In this document: piece by piece, positions 11,402 to 18,493 of the stretch
Layout: every line of letters starts with the position of its first letter
How positions within the stretch are numbered: the stretch's first letter is position 1
DNA from: Candidatus Aminicenantota bacterium
GTDB lineage: Bacteria > Acidobacteriota > Aminicenantia > Aminicenantales > UBA4085
DNA length: 36,106 nucleotides
NCBI GenBank assembly: GCA_030691735.1
Contig: JAUYDS010000120.1
Location: 1 to 36,106, forward strand
Direction: 5' to 3'
Made by a program: the position numbers and the translations under genes
The notes under the pieces: model-generated
Told to the model about the DNA's origin: nothing
Seen by the model: only the letters and a program-made list of their open reading frames with translations
The model's database searches: none

Positions 11402-11415
11402 TTTTTTACAGCTTG

Positions 11416-11431
11416 TGTCGGCCGGCCGACA
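11416..11431. promoter_or_regulatory. Perfect 16-bp palindrome, candidate parA operator or parS-like site
   Basis: TGTCGGCCGGCCGACA, 15 bp upstream of the longest parA start, within AT-rich sequence. Confidence 0.45.
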
Positions 11432-11618
11432 TATACGCTATATATTGTGTTATCAACGGGTTATAAATGCCTGCAATGAGCTAGAAGAAATTGAATGTAA
11501 AATTGTGATGTGAGCGTATAGTCTTATTGATTTAGTAGAGCTGCATGAAAGAGTTTGAATCATTCGGCTCATGAGAACTAGGCCAATATAAATCCGAGCG
11601 GACCTAAAAATGAAAACT

Positions 11619-11711
11619 CCCCGGCCTAAAGACCGGGGCTTTGGGCCATAAAGATGACTGGCCTTCGCTTCGCTCCGGGTGGCATTCATCCCCAGGCTTA
11701 AAAGCCTGGGG
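11619..11711 (-). repeat. Double-hairpin palindromic element resembling an IS200/IS605-type end or omega-RNA-like remnant (no tnpA/tnpB present)
   Basis: Hairpins CCCCGGCCTAAAGACCGGGG (11619-11638) and CCCCAGGCTTAAAAGCCTGGGG (11690-11711, 10-bp perfect arms). Minus strand reads GATGAATGCCACCCGGAGCGAAGCGAAGG...AAAGCCCCGGTCTTTAGGCCGGGGAGTTTTCA. Confidence 0.5.
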
Positions 11712-11899
11712 TTTTCTGGCATAAATATAATATTAATTATATCGGACATATAGGAATTAAAATACTTTGTGTAAAATAATTGACAAAGAAGGCATGAATC
11801 GACGATCAAAAATCGGAGCGTCATAGAATTTTCCGCGCCGAGAGCAAGATAACCTCTGCTCTCCTCGATGAAAATAGGTTGAATTTACGAGGCCGCTTA

Positions 11900-11928
11900 T
11901 TGCTGTATTAGGAATATTCGCTTATAAT
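11900..11928 (+). promoter_or_regulatory. Sigma70-like promoter for the permease/corrinoid cluster
   Basis: TTGCTG (11900-11905), 17-nt spacer, consensus TATAAT (11923-11928). Confidence 0.5.
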
Positions 11929-11992
11929 CGTTGGTAATTTACAAATGAAACGTAGATAATTATATAAGATTCAATATGTTACGATGTAAAAA

Positions 11993-13399
11993 ATGAATTC
12001 GAGAGCGGAGATGACGAAACTGGCGCGCCGGCTCGGTCTCGCCGATTCCGTTTTCCTCGTCATCGGGTCCGTCTTCGGTTCGGGAATTTTCCTGACGACG
12101 GGGATCATCGCTGGCGATCTGCCATCGCCCGGACTGATCTGGATCGTCTGGGCTGTCGGCGGTATTCTGACGATCATAGGCGCCATGACATATGCGGAGC
12201 TCGGAACTCTCTTTCCGGGGTCGGGTGGCCCCTACGTCTATCTAAGAGAAGCTTATGGTCGCAGTCTTTCCTTCCTCTACGGCTGGGCTTTTTTCTGGAT
12301 CATCGGCGGCGGAGGGATCGCCGCTCTGGCCATGGGCTTCGCCGAAAATCTCGGGTCGTTTCTTCCCTCTCTATCCCCAGCGAACGATCTGTTCCGTTTG
12401 TCTTTCGGTCCGCTGCAGCTTCATCCGAGCGTGGGCCATGTTGTTGCCGTCATTTCGATCGTCGTCCTTTCGGTCCTCAACTATTTCGGTATTCAGAGCG
12501 GGGTCCGTTTCCAGAACCTGTTCACGGCGCTCCGCCTGGCCGCCCTGGCCGCGTTCGCCGGGCTCGGCTTCGTGATCGGCCAAAAGCCCGGCTTACGGAA
12601 TTTGGCCCCGTTTTTTCCGAAAGGACCCCTCCCCTCTTTGTCGATGTTCGGAGCGGCCTTTCTTGCGGTTCTCTGGACCTACGATGGTTGGTACTCCGTG
12701 AACTGCACGGCGGAAGAGGTCCGGAATCCCGCTCGAACGATCCCCCGGGCGCTCGTCCTCGGCACGGCGGCCGTCACGGCGCTTTATTTGCTGGCGAATA
12801 TAGTTTATAGTATGGCTCTTCCGGTGGAACGCATGCGTGGAGTCATCCGCATCGGCGAAACGGCCGCGGCCGGGCTTTTCGGGCCGGACGGCGCCCTCCT
12901 CTTTTCCGCATTCATCGCGGCGGCCGTCTTAGGCTGCTTGAGCGCGAACATCCTTTTCTGTCCGCGCGTCTCGTTCGCCATGGCCAGGGATGGACTGTTT
13001 TTTAAAAGCCTGGCCAATGTCCATCCGCGATATCGCGTTCCGGCCAACGCCATCCTCGCCCAGATGATCTGGTCGGCTCTCCTCTGCTTCACCGGGACCT
13101 ATCAGAGCCTGATCGAGTACGTGGCTTTCGCCCTGGTCCTCTTTTTCGCCGCCACGGGTTTTGCCGTGTTCGTCCTCCGTCGCAAGGCGCCCGGCCGCGA
13201 ACGGCCGTTCAAGGTCTGGGGGTACCCGGTCCTGCCGGCCGTGTATGTCTTGATCAACTTGACCATTTTCATCGCCGTGTTCTTCTCCCGGCCGGTCCAG
13301 TCTCTGGCCGGCGCGGCGGTGATCTGCGCCGGTCTTCCGGCTTATTTTTTCTGGAACGCCAAGAGTCGGAAAGCGCTTGTCGAGGGAGACCGGACATGA
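11993..13399 (+). CDS. APC-superfamily amino acid/amine permease
   Basis: About 12 hydrophobic segments; SVFLVIGSVFGSGIFLTTG and GGPYVYLREAYG typical of APC permeases. Confidence 0.88.
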   Translation: MNSRAEMTKLARRLGLADSVFLVIGSVFGSGIFLTTGIIAGDLPSPGLIWIVWAVGGILTIIGAMTYAELGTLFPGSGGPYVYLREAYGRSLSFLYGWAFFWIIGGGGIAALAMGFAENLGSFLPSLSPANDLFRLSFGPLQLHPSVGHVVAVISIVVLSVLNYFGIQSGVRFQNLFTALRLAALAAFAGLGFVIGQKPGLRNLAPFFPKGPLPSLSMFGAAFLAVLWTYDGWYSVNCTAEEVRNPARTIPRALVLGTAAVTALYLLANIVYSMALPVERMRGVIRIGETAAAGLFGPDGALLFSAFIAAAVLGCLSANILFCPRVSFAMARDGLFFKSLANVHPRYRVPANAILAQMIWSALLCFTGTYQSLIEYVAFALVLFFAATGFAVFVLRRKAPGRERPFKVWGYPVLPAVYVLINLTIFIAVFFSRPVQSLAGAAVICAGLPAYFFWNAKSRKALVEGDRT

Positions 13400-15165
13400 A
13401 CCGAACGCTGAAAATTATGCCCGAGGGCCTCGTCATTAAAGTCCCGTTCGGACGCAAGCTGTCGGACGTCCTTGAAGAGGCGGGCATCAGCCTCAGCCTC
13501 TATTGCGGCGGACGGGGAATGTGCGGAAAATGTTTTGTCGAGATCGTCCGCGGCGACCTTCCCGAGCCGAACGAGGAGGAGCGGGTCTTGCTGGCGAGGC
13601 GGCACCTGCCTCCGAATCATCGGCTCGCCTGCCGCTACCGCGTCGAAGGCGATCTCGTCGTCCGCGTTCCCGCCGGCTCGCGGCTTCCCGAGATGCCCGT
13701 GCTCAGCCGGGGTCTTGGACGGACCCTGGTCTTGGATCCCGCGGTCCGCAAGATCCGCTTGACCCGGCCGACCACCGATCTGACCTCTCCGCGCGCTTTT
13801 CTGGATTCGATCGCCGGGCGGTTTTCGGGATCCCGGCTGCCCGGATCGGTGAAGACGTTGAAGGAGCTGACCCGGATCGCGTCCGTCGACACGGCGGACA
13901 CCGACATGACGGCGGTTCTATATCAGAACCGAGAATGGATCTCTCTCGAGCCGGGAGATACGACCGGCCGGAACTTCGGCATCGCCGTCGACCTTGGAAC
14001 CACGACCGTCGTCGTCGAGCTCATCGATCTCAACGGGGGGACGATCGTCGATTCGGCCGCCGGGCTCAACGCTCAAGTGAAATTCGGGGCCGATGTCGTG
14101 TCCAGGATCACGGCAGCCTTCGCCGATCCCAACAAGATGGAAGAGCTGCGCGCCGCGGTGGTCGGCGGTCTCAACGAACTGATCACGGGGTTGCTCCAAA
14201 CGAATCAGGTGGCGTCCGAGACCGTCTACGAAGCCGTCGTGGCCGGGAACACGGCCATGAGTCACCTCTTTCTGGGTTTGCCGGTCGCGACCCTCGCCGT
14301 ATCGCCCTACGCCGCCCTCTTTTCCGTCCTCCCCGCCCTGCCCGCGGACGAAACGGGCCTGGCCATTCATCCCAGGGGCCGCGTTTATCTCGCTCCGAAC
14401 ATCCAGAGTTTCGTCGGGGGCGACATCGCCGCCGGCCTGACCGCCATCGACCTGGAGCATCAGGACGGGAATTTCCTGTTCATTGATCTGGGGACGAACG
14501 GCGAGATCGTCATCAAGAAAGGCCGTCGCTTCACGACGACCTCGACGGCCGCCGGACCGGCTTTCGAGGGGATGACGATCAGCTGCGGAATGCTGGCGCT
14601 GCCCGGCGCCGTTTATAAGGCCAGATATCGCCAGGATGGGCTGAGATTGGAAACGATCGCCGGGCAGCCGGCCAAGGGCGTCTGCGGCACGGGTCTCATC
14701 GACATCATCGCCGGCGCCCTGGACGGCGGGCTCCTCAGCCCGCAAGGCCATATTCGATCCCCTTCTAAGACAATCGCTCTGACGAACGGTCTGGCCTTGA
14801 GCCAGAAAGACGTCCGGGAAGTTCAACTCGCCGCGGCGGCCGTAAAGACGGGCATCCGGATGCTGCTCGACGAGAATTCGATGACCACGGCCGACCTGGA
14901 CGGGATCTACGTCGCCGGCGCGTTCGGAAACTATCTCAACATCCCCAACAGCGTCAAGTTGGGCCTGCTCCCGCGCTTCGACCGGAGCCGGATCCATTTT
15001 GTCGGGAATTCCTCGCTCGCTGGCGCCCGAGCCCTGCTGTTGTCGCGGCCCGAACGCGCCCGTTGCGAGATCCTGGCGAGGAAGGTCCGACACGTGAGCC
15101 TGGCCAAGGGCGCCGACTTTCAGGAGCTCTTCATCGAAGCTTTGGAATTTAAAACCTGGAAATAA
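13396..15165 (+). CDS. RACo-like corrinoid activation protein: N-terminal [2Fe-2S] ferredoxin domain plus C-terminal ASKHA ATPase domain (DUF4445 type)
   Basis: CGGRGMCGKC...RLACRY [2Fe-2S] motif; IAVDLGTTTVVVELIDLNGG and LFIDLGTNGEIVIKKG ASKHA motifs. Confidence 0.85.
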   Translation: MNRTLKIMPEGLVIKVPFGRKLSDVLEEAGISLSLYCGGRGMCGKCFVEIVRGDLPEPNEEERVLLARRHLPPNHRLACRYRVEGDLVVRVPAGSRLPEMPVLSRGLGRTLVLDPAVRKIRLTRPTTDLTSPRAFLDSIAGRFSGSRLPGSVKTLKELTRIASVDTADTDMTAVLYQNREWISLEPGDTTGRNFGIAVDLGTTTVVVELIDLNGGTIVDSAAGLNAQVKFGADVVSRITAAFADPNKMEELRAAVVGGLNELITGLLQTNQVASETVYEAVVAGNTAMSHLFLGLPVATLAVSPYAALFSVLPALPADETGLAIHPRGRVYLAPNIQSFVGGDIAAGLTAIDLEHQDGNFLFIDLGTNGEIVIKKGRRFTTTSTAAGPAFEGMTISCGMLALPGAVYKARYRQDGLRLETIAGQPAKGVCGTGLIDIIAGALDGGLLSPQGHIRSPSKTIALTNGLALSQKDVREVQLAAAAVKTGIRMLLDENSMTTADLDGIYVAGAFGNYLNIPNSVKLGLLPRFDRSRIHFVGNSSLAGARALLLSRPERARCEILARKVRHVSLAKGADFQELFIEALEFKTWK

Positions 15166-15202
15166 TCGCGTGGAACGAGGATTCCGCGGACAAGGAGACG
15201 AC

Positions 15203-15868
15203 ATGGAGTCCAAAGACCGTCTTTTGGCCGCGATGACGGCGGCCATCGTCGAAGGCGACAGGGCCGCGGCCGAAGCTTTGGCCGCGAAAGCCCTGGCCGA
15301 GTCCCTCGACCTGCATGAGGTCATCGAGAAAGGCTACATTCCCGGGATTCAGAAGGTCGGGGCGCTCTGGGAAAGTGGCGAGTACTTCCTGCCCGAGCTC
15401 ATCAGCAGCGCCGAATGCATGAAGGCCGCCCTGGCCGTCCTCAAGCCCGCCCTCGCCGCCGCCCGCGCGGAAGCGTTTTTGCGAGGAAAGGTGGTTATCG
15501 GCACGATCGAGGGCGACATCCACGACATCGGCAAGAACCTGGTTGCTTCGATGCTCTCGGCCAACGGTTTCGATGTGCTCGACCTAGGCGCTGACGTCAA
15601 GCTGGCGAGGTTCATCGAGGCGGCCGAGGAGACGGGAGCGGACCTCATCTGCCTGTCCTCGCTGCTGACCACGACGATGCTCAACCAGCGCCGCCTGATC
15701 GAGATGCTGAAAGAGAGAGGGCTGCGCGGACGGTTTAAAGTGTTGGTCGGCGGAGCGCCCGTAACCCGGAAATGGGCGGAGGATATCGGCGCCGACGGCT
15801 ACGGCGAGAACGCCCTGGCCGCCGTCAAACTGGCCGTCGCGCTCGGACCGAAACGGAGGCTCGGATGA
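15203..15868 (+). CDS. Methyltransferase cognate corrinoid protein (B12-binding, MttC/MtbC-like); start at 15203 preferred over 15170
   Basis: GTIEGDIHDIGKNL (DxHxxG cobalamin motif), LGADVKLARFIEAAEETGADLICLSSLLTTTM, VLVGGAPV. Confidence 0.93.
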   Translation: MESKDRLLAAMTAAIVEGDRAAAEALAAKALAESLDLHEVIEKGYIPGIQKVGALWESGEYFLPELISSAECMKAALAVLKPALAAARAEAFLRGKVVIGTIEGDIHDIGKNLVASMLSANGFDVLDLGADVKLARFIEAAEETGADLICLSSLLTTTMLNQRRLIEMLKERGLRGRFKVLVGGAPVTRKWAEDIGADGYGENALAAVKLAVALGPKRRLG

Positions 15869-17337
15869 TCCGCACCATGCGCCCCAAGACCGAGCTGCTC
15901 AGCCGTCCCTTCATTGAAAAAATCATCGACGAGGCCATTCTCCTCCTCGGACGGCATGGCGTTTTCGTCGAGAACGCCGAGGCCCGGATCCTGTTCAAGG
16001 AAGCCGGGATGCCGACCGACGAGACGAGCCTCAAAGTTCTCATCAATCGGAAGCTCATCGAGGATTCCCTCGAGGCGACCCCCTTGACGGTCAGACTCTA
16101 TGACCGGACCGGCGAGAAGGAATATGTCATCGGCCACGACAACGTCCACTTCGATCCGGGCTCGGCCGCGGTCAGGATCCTCGACCACGCCACCCAGCAG
16201 GAGCGGCTGCCCCTGACTGCCGATCTCGTCCAAATGGCCCGCCTGACGGACAGCTGCGAGAATCTCCATTTTCAAAGCACGGCCCTGATCGCCTCGGATG
16301 TCCCGGAGATCATCGCCGACAGCTATCGGCTCTTCGTCGGCCTTCAGCTTTGTTCGAAGCCCATCGTGACCGGCCTCTTCCGGACGGCGGGATTTCGCCC
16401 GATGTTCGAGATGCTGGCCGCCGTCCGGGGCGGGGCTGAGGAGCTCCGCCGAAAGCCCTTGGCCGTCTTTGATGCCTGCCCCTCCCCTCCCTTGAAATGG
16501 AGCCACCTGACCGCCCAAAGCCTCATCGACTGCGCTCGGGCCGGCATCCCCTCGGAGCTCATCTCGATGGGCTTGACCGGCGCGACTTCGCCGGTGACGC
16601 TGGCCGGCACCCTCGTCCAGCACGTCGCCGAGAATCTGGCAGGCCTCGTCATCTGCCAGCTGGCCCAACGAGGCGCACCCGTGATCTTCGGCGGCTCGCC
16701 GGCGGGTTTCGATATGAGGAAAGGCACGACCCCTATGGGGGCGATCGAGACGATGATGATCGATATGGCTTACGCCCAGATCGGCAAATATCTCAAGCTG
16801 CCGACCCACGCCTACATGGGCCTCAGCGACGCCAAGATCAATGATTCCCAGGCGGGACTAGAATCCGGCATGGGCGCCGTCCTGGCCGCGCTGGCCGGCG
16901 TCAACGTCGTCTCGGGCGCGGGGATGATGGATTTCGAGAGCACCCAGAGCTTGGAAAAACTCTTGATCGACAACGAGATCTGCGGCATGGCCTACCGGTT
17001 GATCGGGGGGATCGCCCAGCGCGACGAACCTCTCGCCCTGCGCCTGTTCGAAGCCCTGGGGCCGGAAAACCAATTCCTGACCTTGCCCCACACCCGAAAG
17101 TGGTACAGGGTCGAACACATGTTCACGACGCTGGCCGATCGGGACACCTATGAAGCCTGGGTCGGACTTGGCCGGAAATCCATGGCCGAACGGGCTCACG
17201 ACCGTCTCGAGCGGATCCTCGGCGAAACGTCTCCGAACCTGGTCGATCCCGCTCTCCAAAAGGAGCTTCAAGCGATCATGAGGAACGACGCCCAGTCGAT
17301 CGGGATCGGCGTCTTGCCGGAAATGAAGATCGGCTGA
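15865..17337 (+). CDS. Trimethylamine methyltransferase (MttB) family protein, non-pyrrolysine type; start at 15865 preferred
   Basis: MttB-like sequence (FDACPSPPLKWSHLTAQSLIDCARAGIPSELISMGLTGATSPVTLAG; GLESGMGAVLAALAGVNVVSGAGMMDFESTQSLEKLLIDNEIC) with no internal amber codon; ATGA overlap with corrinoid gene. Confidence 0.88.
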   Translation: MIRTMRPKTELLSRPFIEKIIDEAILLLGRHGVFVENAEARILFKEAGMPTDETSLKVLINRKLIEDSLEATPLTVRLYDRTGEKEYVIGHDNVHFDPGSAAVRILDHATQQERLPLTADLVQMARLTDSCENLHFQSTALIASDVPEIIADSYRLFVGLQLCSKPIVTGLFRTAGFRPMFEMLAAVRGGAEELRRKPLAVFDACPSPPLKWSHLTAQSLIDCARAGIPSELISMGLTGATSPVTLAGTLVQHVAENLAGLVICQLAQRGAPVIFGGSPAGFDMRKGTTPMGAIETMMIDMAYAQIGKYLKLPTHAYMGLSDAKINDSQAGLESGMGAVLAALAGVNVVSGAGMMDFESTQSLEKLLIDNEICGMAYRLIGGIAQRDEPLALRLFEALGPENQFLTLPHTRKWYRVEHMFTTLADRDTYEAWVGLGRKSMAERAHDRLERILGETSPNLVDPALQKELQAIMRNDAQSIGIGVLPEMKIG

Positions 17338-17404
17338 ACGAAATGGAGACATCGGCGGCCTTCTCGAGGAGCGTCATCACGATGTTTTTAGAACGAAGGC
17401 CGTC

Positions 17405-18007
17405 ATGAACGCGCAGGTCGTTCTTAAGGACTTCACGTTCCGCTGGAACCAGGAGAAGATCTGCGTCCGTGTCGGAAGCCGCGGTGGGCTGCGGTCGGCG
17501 TCGCCTTCCCTGAGGGAGCTTCTCCACCAGGCTGAAGGGACGATGCCGGTCCTTCTCCGGCCTCGGGCGGCGTATACGATCATCGACCGTGACGAAACGA
17601 ACGGGCATCCCGTTTTTGATGAAGCGGTCAAAGTGGCGCTCGGCGTAGTGACCATCGGTCCGGCGCTCGAAACCGAGGTCCAACGGGCGTTCCGGGAGGG
17701 CGATATGCTCCAAGGGCTCGTTCTGGACGCCTTCGGGTCGGAGGCGGTCGTCCAAACGTTCCGGCAGGTCGAAGGGCGGATCGTCGATGAAGCGCTGGGG
17801 TTGGGTCTCTGGCCGAGCAAGCGGTTCAGCCCGGGCTATAAAGGCTGGCCGCTCGAAGAGCAGCGCTTTCTTTTCTCGCGCGTGGACGCGGCGGCCATCG
17901 GGGTCGATCTCAATGACTCCTGCATGATGATCCCGCGGAAATCGAATTCGTTTCGGATCAATTTCTACGCAGAACGAAGCCTCTCCACCCGCCGGCTGGC
18001 CTCTTGA
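17405..18007 (+). CDS. Stand-alone vitamin B12-dependent methionine synthase activation-domain-like protein
   Basis: PSKRFSPGYKGWPLEEQRFLFSRVDAAAIGVDLNDSCMMIPRKSNSF resembles the SAM-binding MetH activation domain; position after the MttB-family gene. Confidence 0.65.
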   Translation: MNAQVVLKDFTFRWNQEKICVRVGSRGGLRSASPSLRELLHQAEGTMPVLLRPRAAYTIIDRDETNGHPVFDEAVKVALGVVTIGPALETEVQRAFREGDMLQGLVLDAFGSEAVVQTFRQVEGRIVDEALGLGLWPSKRFSPGYKGWPLEEQRFLFSRVDAAAIGVDLNDSCMMIPRKSNSFRINFYAERSLSTRRLAS

Positions 18008-18157: not shown

Positions 18158-18172
18158 CCAGGAGATAACGTG

Positions 18173-18493
18173 ATGCGCCCTGCCGGGACGACCCGAACCG
18201 AACGCGAGTGCCGGTCCAAACTCAAACCCATCATTTCGGGCGGAGGGATCCTTCGCGCCACTCCCACCATCCGCCAGCAAGTCTGCGGAAAGCCGGGCTG
18301 CAAGTGCCAACGCGGCGAGAAGCACGCGGCCATGGTCCTCACCCGCAGTACCAACGGAAAGATCGAACAGCTTCATATCTCGAGGGGTCAAGAAGCGATC
18401 GTTCAGCTTTGGATTCAACGGTATCACGATATTCGGGACCTTCTGGAGAATATCTCTGCGATCTATTGGGATCGATTGAAAAAGAAGAGGTAG
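18173..18493 (+). CDS. Small DUF6788-like protein with Cys motif
   Basis: RQQVCGKPGCKCQRGEKHAAMVLTRSTNGKIEQLHI; GGAG Shine-Dalgarno upstream. Confidence 0.55.
   Translation: MRPAGTTRTERECRSKLKPIISGGGILRATPTIRQQVCGKPGCKCQRGEKHAAMVLTRSTNGKIEQLHISRGQEAIVQLWIQRYHDIRDLLENISAIYWDRLKKKR

Follow-up and report, generated by a model that had tools for sequence, protein, structure and literature searches.

A candidate split, cobalamin-dependent methyl-transfer cluster with an MttB-superfamily protein in Candidatus Aminicenantota

We analysed a stretch of 36,106 nucleotides from a Candidatus Aminicenantota bacterium (contig JAUYDS010000120.1, hereafter the window; contig C191 in the numbering of the source assembly, which comprises 2.86 Mb in 211 contigs and is 92.5% complete). 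Between positions 11993 and 18007 the window carries five genes on the plus strand. Together they encode a transporter and a B12-dependent methyl-transfer machine that probably takes methyl groups from a methylated amine brought into the cell and passes them to homocysteine, which yields methionine, and to folate. An original prediction, made from the sequence alone, had placed five same-strand genes here and named their products. The positions of the open reading frames (ORFs), the Pfam and TIGR matches and the fold matches agree with it:

11993..13399, plus strand: APC-superfamily amino acid permease (LAT-like), putative substrate importer; PF13520 (AA_permease_2), E 5.5e-54; alternative start at ATG 12011
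13396..15165, plus strand: RACo/RamA-like ATP-dependent corrinoid reductive activase, N-terminal [2Fe-2S] and ASKHA parts; PF14574, PF17651, PF00111; RACo_C_ter E 1.6e-67
15203..15868, plus strand: corrinoid protein of MtgC/MttC type; TIGR02370, 223.1 bits (cut-off 215.3); PF02607 (B12-binding_2), PF02310 (B12-binding)
15865..17337, plus strand: non-pyrrolysine MttB-superfamily methyltransferase of a distinct subfamily; PF06253 (MTTB), E 4e-86
17405..18007, plus strand: stand-alone MetH-type reactivation protein, binding S-adenosylmethionine (AdoMet), TM0269-like; profile match to 1j6r, E 2.5e-13

The cluster and its predicted reactivation proteins

The permease and RACo genes overlap by 4 nt (ATGA at 13396), and so do the corrinoid and MttB genes, where the MttB ATG at 15865 lies within an ATGA that includes the corrinoid stop codon. 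With ATG 15203 as the corrinoid start, 37 nt lie between RACo and the corrinoid gene; a gap of 67 nt follows between MttB and the activator gene, the last of the five. The longest corrinoid ORF opens at GTG 15170, but ATG 15203, which has AAGGAG upstream, appears the more likely start. Identical gene order is found in other Aminicenantes (L078, L079, L081, L085; MttB identity 83-92% and 68-70%), and the nearest named match, a Candidatus Aminicenantes metagenome-assembled genome (MAG), has the same five genes in the same order with a 92% identical MttB. This recurrence in independent MAGs rules out chance or an assembly accident as the origin of the arrangement.

The MttB frame contains no in-frame amber (TAG) codon and carries Leu at MttB's pyrrolysine position, as expected of the non-pyrrolysine protein originally proposed. 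It scores 397.3 bits against TIGR02369, the equivalog of pyrrolysine-containing trimethylamine methyltransferases, under the curated cut-off of 525; this and the missing amber codon rule out an enzyme of that type. The predicted model (pLDDT 89.4) has MttB as best Foldseek match (7xcl, TM-score 0.92), with MtgB at 0.91 (9yce). A phylogeny against characterised members had been suggested as a check. Our tree, which covers the subfamily (37 rows), MttB, Desulfitobacterium hafniense MtgB and 4yyc, does not group the protein with MtgB: the subfamily is monophyletic and apart from all three (100/100), on long branches and a long stem that call for caution. The window protein is 34% identical to MttB, 30.5% to MtgB and 27% to 4yyc. 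Given these identities and the separate position of the subfamily, a substrate, such as the glycine betaine of MtgB, cannot be transferred from any of the three. The same subfamily occurs at 51-60% identity in MAGs labelled Heimdallarchaeota, Ignavibacteria and Bacteroidetes (L157, L127, L138, L144), which suggests lateral transfer or binning error.

The corrinoid protein carries the DxHxxG motif as GDIHDIG. Two different proteins of the cluster might restore it to its active state. The first, with the Pfam domains Fer2, Raco_middle and RACo_C_ter, belongs to the RACo/RamA-like activases; it matches the RACo structure 3zyy at E 2.8e-100 and contains CGGRGMCGKC...C. The second is less conspicuous, since it reaches just 17.4 bits (E 0.003) against Pfam Met_synt_B12 (PF02965) and misses the cut-off of 25, which its relatives in L071 (27.0 bits) and L188 (28.4 bits) clear. 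Despite this score, the AlphaFold model (pLDDT 95.8) gives the fifth protein the fold of a MetH activation domain: Foldseek places 1j6r first (E 5.3e-13, TM-score 0.77) and all 19 significant matches are MetH reactivation domains. The R-x-S-P-G-Y motif (RxxPGY, AdoMet-binding) is kept, with R140, P143, G144 and Y145 invariant in our alignment A3. In the MttB-negative sister families f6 and f9, a homologue overlaps by 4 nt a MetH that has homocysteine, pterin and B12 domains and lacks the activation domain (L181, L182; the layout of L184 is the same). Hence, the activator family most plausibly represents a MetH activation domain that has become detached; its partner in MttB clusters is a corrinoid protein of MttC type, scoring above the TIGR02370 cut-off.

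That an ATP-dependent and an AdoMet-type reactivator stand together had been noted in the original prediction, and they do, in a minority of cases. Among 64 non-redundant related clusters with adequate flanks, 25 hold RACo only, 19 the activator only, 7 both, like the window, and 13 neither. The two look largely like alternatives across relatives. Outside the order, all seven MttB-positive members of the class have the activator and none has RACo, so that the activator is the sole reactivator linked to MttB there. The activators from outside the order (alignment A1; L053, L062-L075) bear a C-terminal CxxC...C motif that the window version lacks. In one relative (L168, G351:C112), a longer RACo (642 residues) and a homocysteine methyltransferase gene follow genes for acetyl-CoA synthase and the corrinoid iron-sulfur protein, linking the system to a Wood-Ljungdahl gene cluster.

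One might argue that RACo alone reactivates the corrinoid protein of the cluster, the activator being a redundant leftover or serving another corrinoid enzyme. The 25 clusters with RACo and no cognate activator would fit, as would an activator gene that follows MttB at a distance rather than overlapping it. We nevertheless find this unlikely: the activator lies inside 26 of the 64 clusters, its PGY core is kept in genomes that also have RACo, the window's included, its role outside the order is exclusive, and the full-length MetH that it might serve was not found in the source genome.

Candidate methyl acceptors and the proposed methyl-transfer scheme

The original prediction saw no methylcobalamin:pterin methyltransferase and left the methyl acceptor open. 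The window indeed holds no acceptor enzyme, but the question is largely answerable from the source genome and its relatives. A corrinoid gene is present in 54 of the 64 clusters, and 25 of the 64 include, beside the corrinoid and MttB genes, a stand-alone homocysteine S-methyltransferase of MtgE type; in related clusters it fills a gap of ~900 nt between RACo and the corrinoid gene. It is found in several gene orders, RACo-MtgE-MtgC-MttB, MtgC-MtgE-activator-MttB and MtgE-RACo-MtgC-MttB-activator, Zixibacteria and Krumholzibacteriota included, and a Gemmatimonadota locus reads MtgC-MttB-MtgD-MtgE in a row. The source genome encodes exactly one PF02574 protein, an MtgE of 295 residues on another contig (C89:5083-5970), which scores best against models of MetH/PRK07534 type. 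An assignment to MmuM, the S-methylmethionine:homocysteine enzyme, is not favoured: with that model the protein gets its lowest score, 123 bits, whereas the two best models give 210-260. Neither MetE nor MetH was found in this 92.5% complete genome; no ORF of MetH size was detected and PF02607 finds just two stand-alone corrinoid proteins. The second of these (C40, L037:8504-9130, minus strand) is MtgC-like and has no methyltransferase adjoining, and its homologues in other Acidobacteriota adjoin MttB, activator and MtgE genes.

The pterin enzyme lies elsewhere. A profile built from seven MtgD-like proteins plus MetH and fused pterin domains detects a pterin gene in only 2 of the 118 loci fetched, which speaks against a partner hidden inside the clusters. 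In the source genome PF00809 matches only FolP and a protein of 828 residues (C144, L036:7920-10403, minus strand) that fuses a methylenetetrahydrofolate reductase (MTHFR, MetF), a MetV-like part (DUF5981) and a C-terminal pterin-binding domain (31.5 bits, cut-off 25.5). No other MTHFR was found in the genome. Among the genomes searched, ORFs of this kind (830-870 residues, both domains) turned up in no family but the window's own (f1), and in genus g4 the pterin and MetF genes adjoin each other. Access to cobalamin, on which the original prediction depended, is indicated by a cobalamin riboswitch that immediately precedes a TonB-dependent receptor gene in the source genome.

These gene contents lead us to propose, with a probability of about 0.7, that the cluster supplies the donor enzyme and the corrinoid protein, one half of a split hub for cobalamin-dependent methyl transfer that resembles MtgBCDE. 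Like that hub, it joins a PF06253 donor to a stand-alone PF02607/PF02310 corrinoid protein, here by a 4-nt overlap, in a genome with a single stand-alone PF02574 MtgE and no full MetH detected. The permease would import an N-methylated, amino-acid-like compound, from which MttB, judging by its family, would move one methyl group to the Co(I) of MtgC. MtgE, whose presence and linkage are observed, would demethylate methyl-MtgC with homocysteine to yield methionine. In the window's family the pterin domain of the fusion may also demethylate methyl-MtgC, giving methyl-tetrahydrofolate (methyl-THF) for oxidation by MetF; conversely, methyl-THF could feed into methionine through the same domain. 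MtgC trapped as Co(II) would be rescued by RACo, using ATP and a [2Fe-2S] electron donor, and/or by the TM0269-like protein through AdoMet-dependent reductive methylation, as in MetH.

Genes for methionine synthesis in relatives and competing explanations

The distribution of these genes argues for a functional link. Among the genomes of the order, 25 are MttB-positive. The MtgE clade occurs in 24 of these and so does RACo, with the same draft (G393) lacking both. G320 has RACo and MtgE without MttB, likely because of a contig gap. The MttB-negative genomes G256 and G387 lack MttB, the MtgE clade and RACo altogether. Both belong to Candidatus Saccharicenans (g9) and encode a MetH-like protein with an adjacent MTHFR; that of G387 was checked and has homocysteine, pterin and B12 domains. 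In the five MttB-positive members of the genus (G178, G186, G209, G224, G232; completeness 90-93%) we detected no MTHFR, MetE or MetH-like ORF, with the caveat that the MTHFR model gives g4 homologues just 37-39 bits and a more diverged enzyme could escape it. Five independent absences at such completeness are unlikely to be assembly gaps. This exchange suggests, from gene content, that methionine synthesis fed by MttB can replace the folate route in Saccharicenans.

A further association comes from a conserved block, serC-serA-nifS-[MtgE]-[MtgD]-DUF4416-asnS-rimO, whose DUF4416-like member we presumptively named by eye. MtgE and MtgD lie side by side within it in G111 and G344, and the part from serC to MtgD is seen in G060 and G120. 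The window's family, source genome included, has MtgE alone there. Saccharicenans and G264 have MtgD alone, and in their MttB-positive genomes MtgE sits in the MttB operon. This distribution argues that MtgE, MtgD and the MttB operon are one functional set. In L077 and related loci MtgE and MtgD come and go in the block, as if MtgE had moved between it and the MttB operon.

A bolder proposal is that MttB, MtgC and MtgE form a folate-independent B12 methionine synthase with a methylated amine as obligatory donor, i.e. a MetH whose folate module was swapped for MttB while the homocysteine and B12 modules and, in some lineages, the activation modules were kept, and which would be the sole methionine route in MttB-positive Saccharicenans. 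We put this forward tentatively, at somewhat less than even odds.

Several observations weigh against our interpretation. MtgD-like pterin proteins persist in the Saccharicenans without detectable MTHFR, which a pure replacement of folate does not explain. The five MttB-positive genomes of family f7 carry a MetH-like long ORF besides the cluster MtgE, so the hub is not the sole methionine synthase in every genome. In the source genome MtgE lies on a different contig from the cluster, and the C40 corrinoid protein could be its partner instead of the cluster MtgC. Finally, all genomes compared are incomplete MAGs and absences are provisional.

A more conventional alternative is catabolic demethylation of a quaternary amine, in which methyl groups pass from MttB through MtgC to THF only, via the fusion, for one-carbon oxidation or assimilation, and MtgE is unrelated and makes methionine with another corrinoid protein. 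Most characterised non-pyrrolysine MttB proteins do feed THF (PMC8604678, PMC12155760), the pterin domain is joined to MetF and MetV in the window's family and neighbours MetF in g4, and a second corrinoid protein exists in the genome. Yet MtgE, not the pterin gene, travels with MttB and MtgC, and the five MttB-positive Saccharicenans have no detectable MTHFR with which to oxidise methyl-THF. We consider this explanation improbable.

The least probable alternative changes only the donor, which would be, say, trimethyl-lysine or another methylated amino acid whose alpha-amino group is free, or a sulfonium such as S-methylmethionine, rather than a quaternary amine, and leaves the rest of the scheme intact. 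The characterised non-pyrrolysine MttB proteins are not known to use anything but quaternary amines. The permease is of APC type, as first predicted. It scores 235 bits against TIGR00911, under the model's cut-off, and the solved structures nearest to it belong to LAT/xCT-type light chains and to a bacterial carrier of amino acids or polyamines, but APC carriers move many compounds and one trimethylamine N-oxide permease model matches too, weakly. Its position upstream of RACo is conserved in f1 and in many further Aminicenantes clusters. A linked LAT-like carrier that is neither BCCT nor ABC would suit such a donor, as would the long-stemmed clade formed by the subfamily, which shares 30-34% identity with characterised members; even at 53% identity MtcB and MtyB prefer different substrates (PMC8604678).

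Upstream, the cluster is separated from a divergent parA:

11402..11992, no strand: A+T-rich intergenic region between parA and the cluster; consensus matches only

Within it, 11619-11711 holds two GC-rich hairpins, one per strand, perfect or nearly so and ending in T-rich tails; they could be terminators or the ends of a small mobile element. Rfam finds no riboswitch in the window at the gathering threshold, its sole match being a tRNA. Directly downstream, 18170-18493 (plus strand) encodes a small DUF6788 protein, probably a separate unit.

Relation to known systems

No description of an operon of this make-up turned up in a literature search on Aminicenantes in combination with MttB or methionine synthesis, and Aminicenantes go unmentioned in the main text of the Stordalen Mire methylotrophy paper. 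The results extend the link between betaine demethylation and methionine synthesis beyond aerobic marine Proteobacteria, to uncultured bacteria related to Acidobacteriota and to several other phyla, here with the homocysteine enzyme as part of the MttB operon. The exchange of MetH and MTHFR for MttB and MtgE within one genus offers a testable case for an amine donor replacing folate in methionine synthesis. If the folate-independent proposal holds, MttB-positive Saccharicenans would rely on betaine-like compounds, imported or internal, as the source of methyl groups for methionine and AdoMet. A shared corrinoid protein with reactivators driven by ATP, AdoMet or both is also a set of parts with which to ask why lineages keep one, the other or both.

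The closest known system is MtgBCDE of Ruegeria pomeroyi DSS-3 and Sinorhizobium meliloti (Mausz et al. 2025, PMC12478193). In R. pomeroyi, where it builds on the split methionine synthase known from Phaeobacter inhibens (PMC5764234), MtgC and MtgD are needed both for methionine synthesis and for growth on betaine. As in our proposal, an MttB-superfamily donor and MtgE are separate proteins sharing MtgC, with a RamA-like reactivator. The separate pterin protein MtgD, which also shares MtgC there and has MetF as its partner, may have its counterpart here in the MtgD of relatives or in the pterin domain of the fusion. The arrangement differs: in Aminicenantia MtgE accompanies MttB and MtgC and the pterin enzyme lies elsewhere, whereas mtgE is the gene that lies away from mtgBCD in the marine bacteria cited. 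The transporter is APC here and BCCT there, a TM0269-like MetH activation protein takes the place of DUF1638 as second reactivator, MetF-MetV and the pterin enzyme form one fused protein in the window's family, and MttB belongs to a separate subfamily. Likewise, the methionine synthase of P. inhibens consists of three parts (Price et al. 2018, PMC5764234), with homocysteine, B12 and pterin modules on separate genes and a DUF4445/RamA-like reactivator; the system as described includes no MttB, and P. inhibens has no PF02965 protein and uses DUF1638. MtgABC of D. hafniense and MtpB, MtcB or MtyB with MtqC/MtqA of Eubacterium limosum also pair a non-pyrrolysine MttB with a cognate corrinoid protein, often with RamA-like reactivation; there the acceptor is THF, through MtgA or MtqA, and the systems as described include neither a homocysteine enzyme nor a MetH-type activator. 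The activation domain as a protein of its own is known from Thermotoga maritima, where TM0269 (1j6r), which the fifth gene product matches best in structure, serves the B12 domain of the MetH polypeptide, whereas its counterpart here is linked to an MttC/MtgC-type corrinoid protein (TIGR02370).

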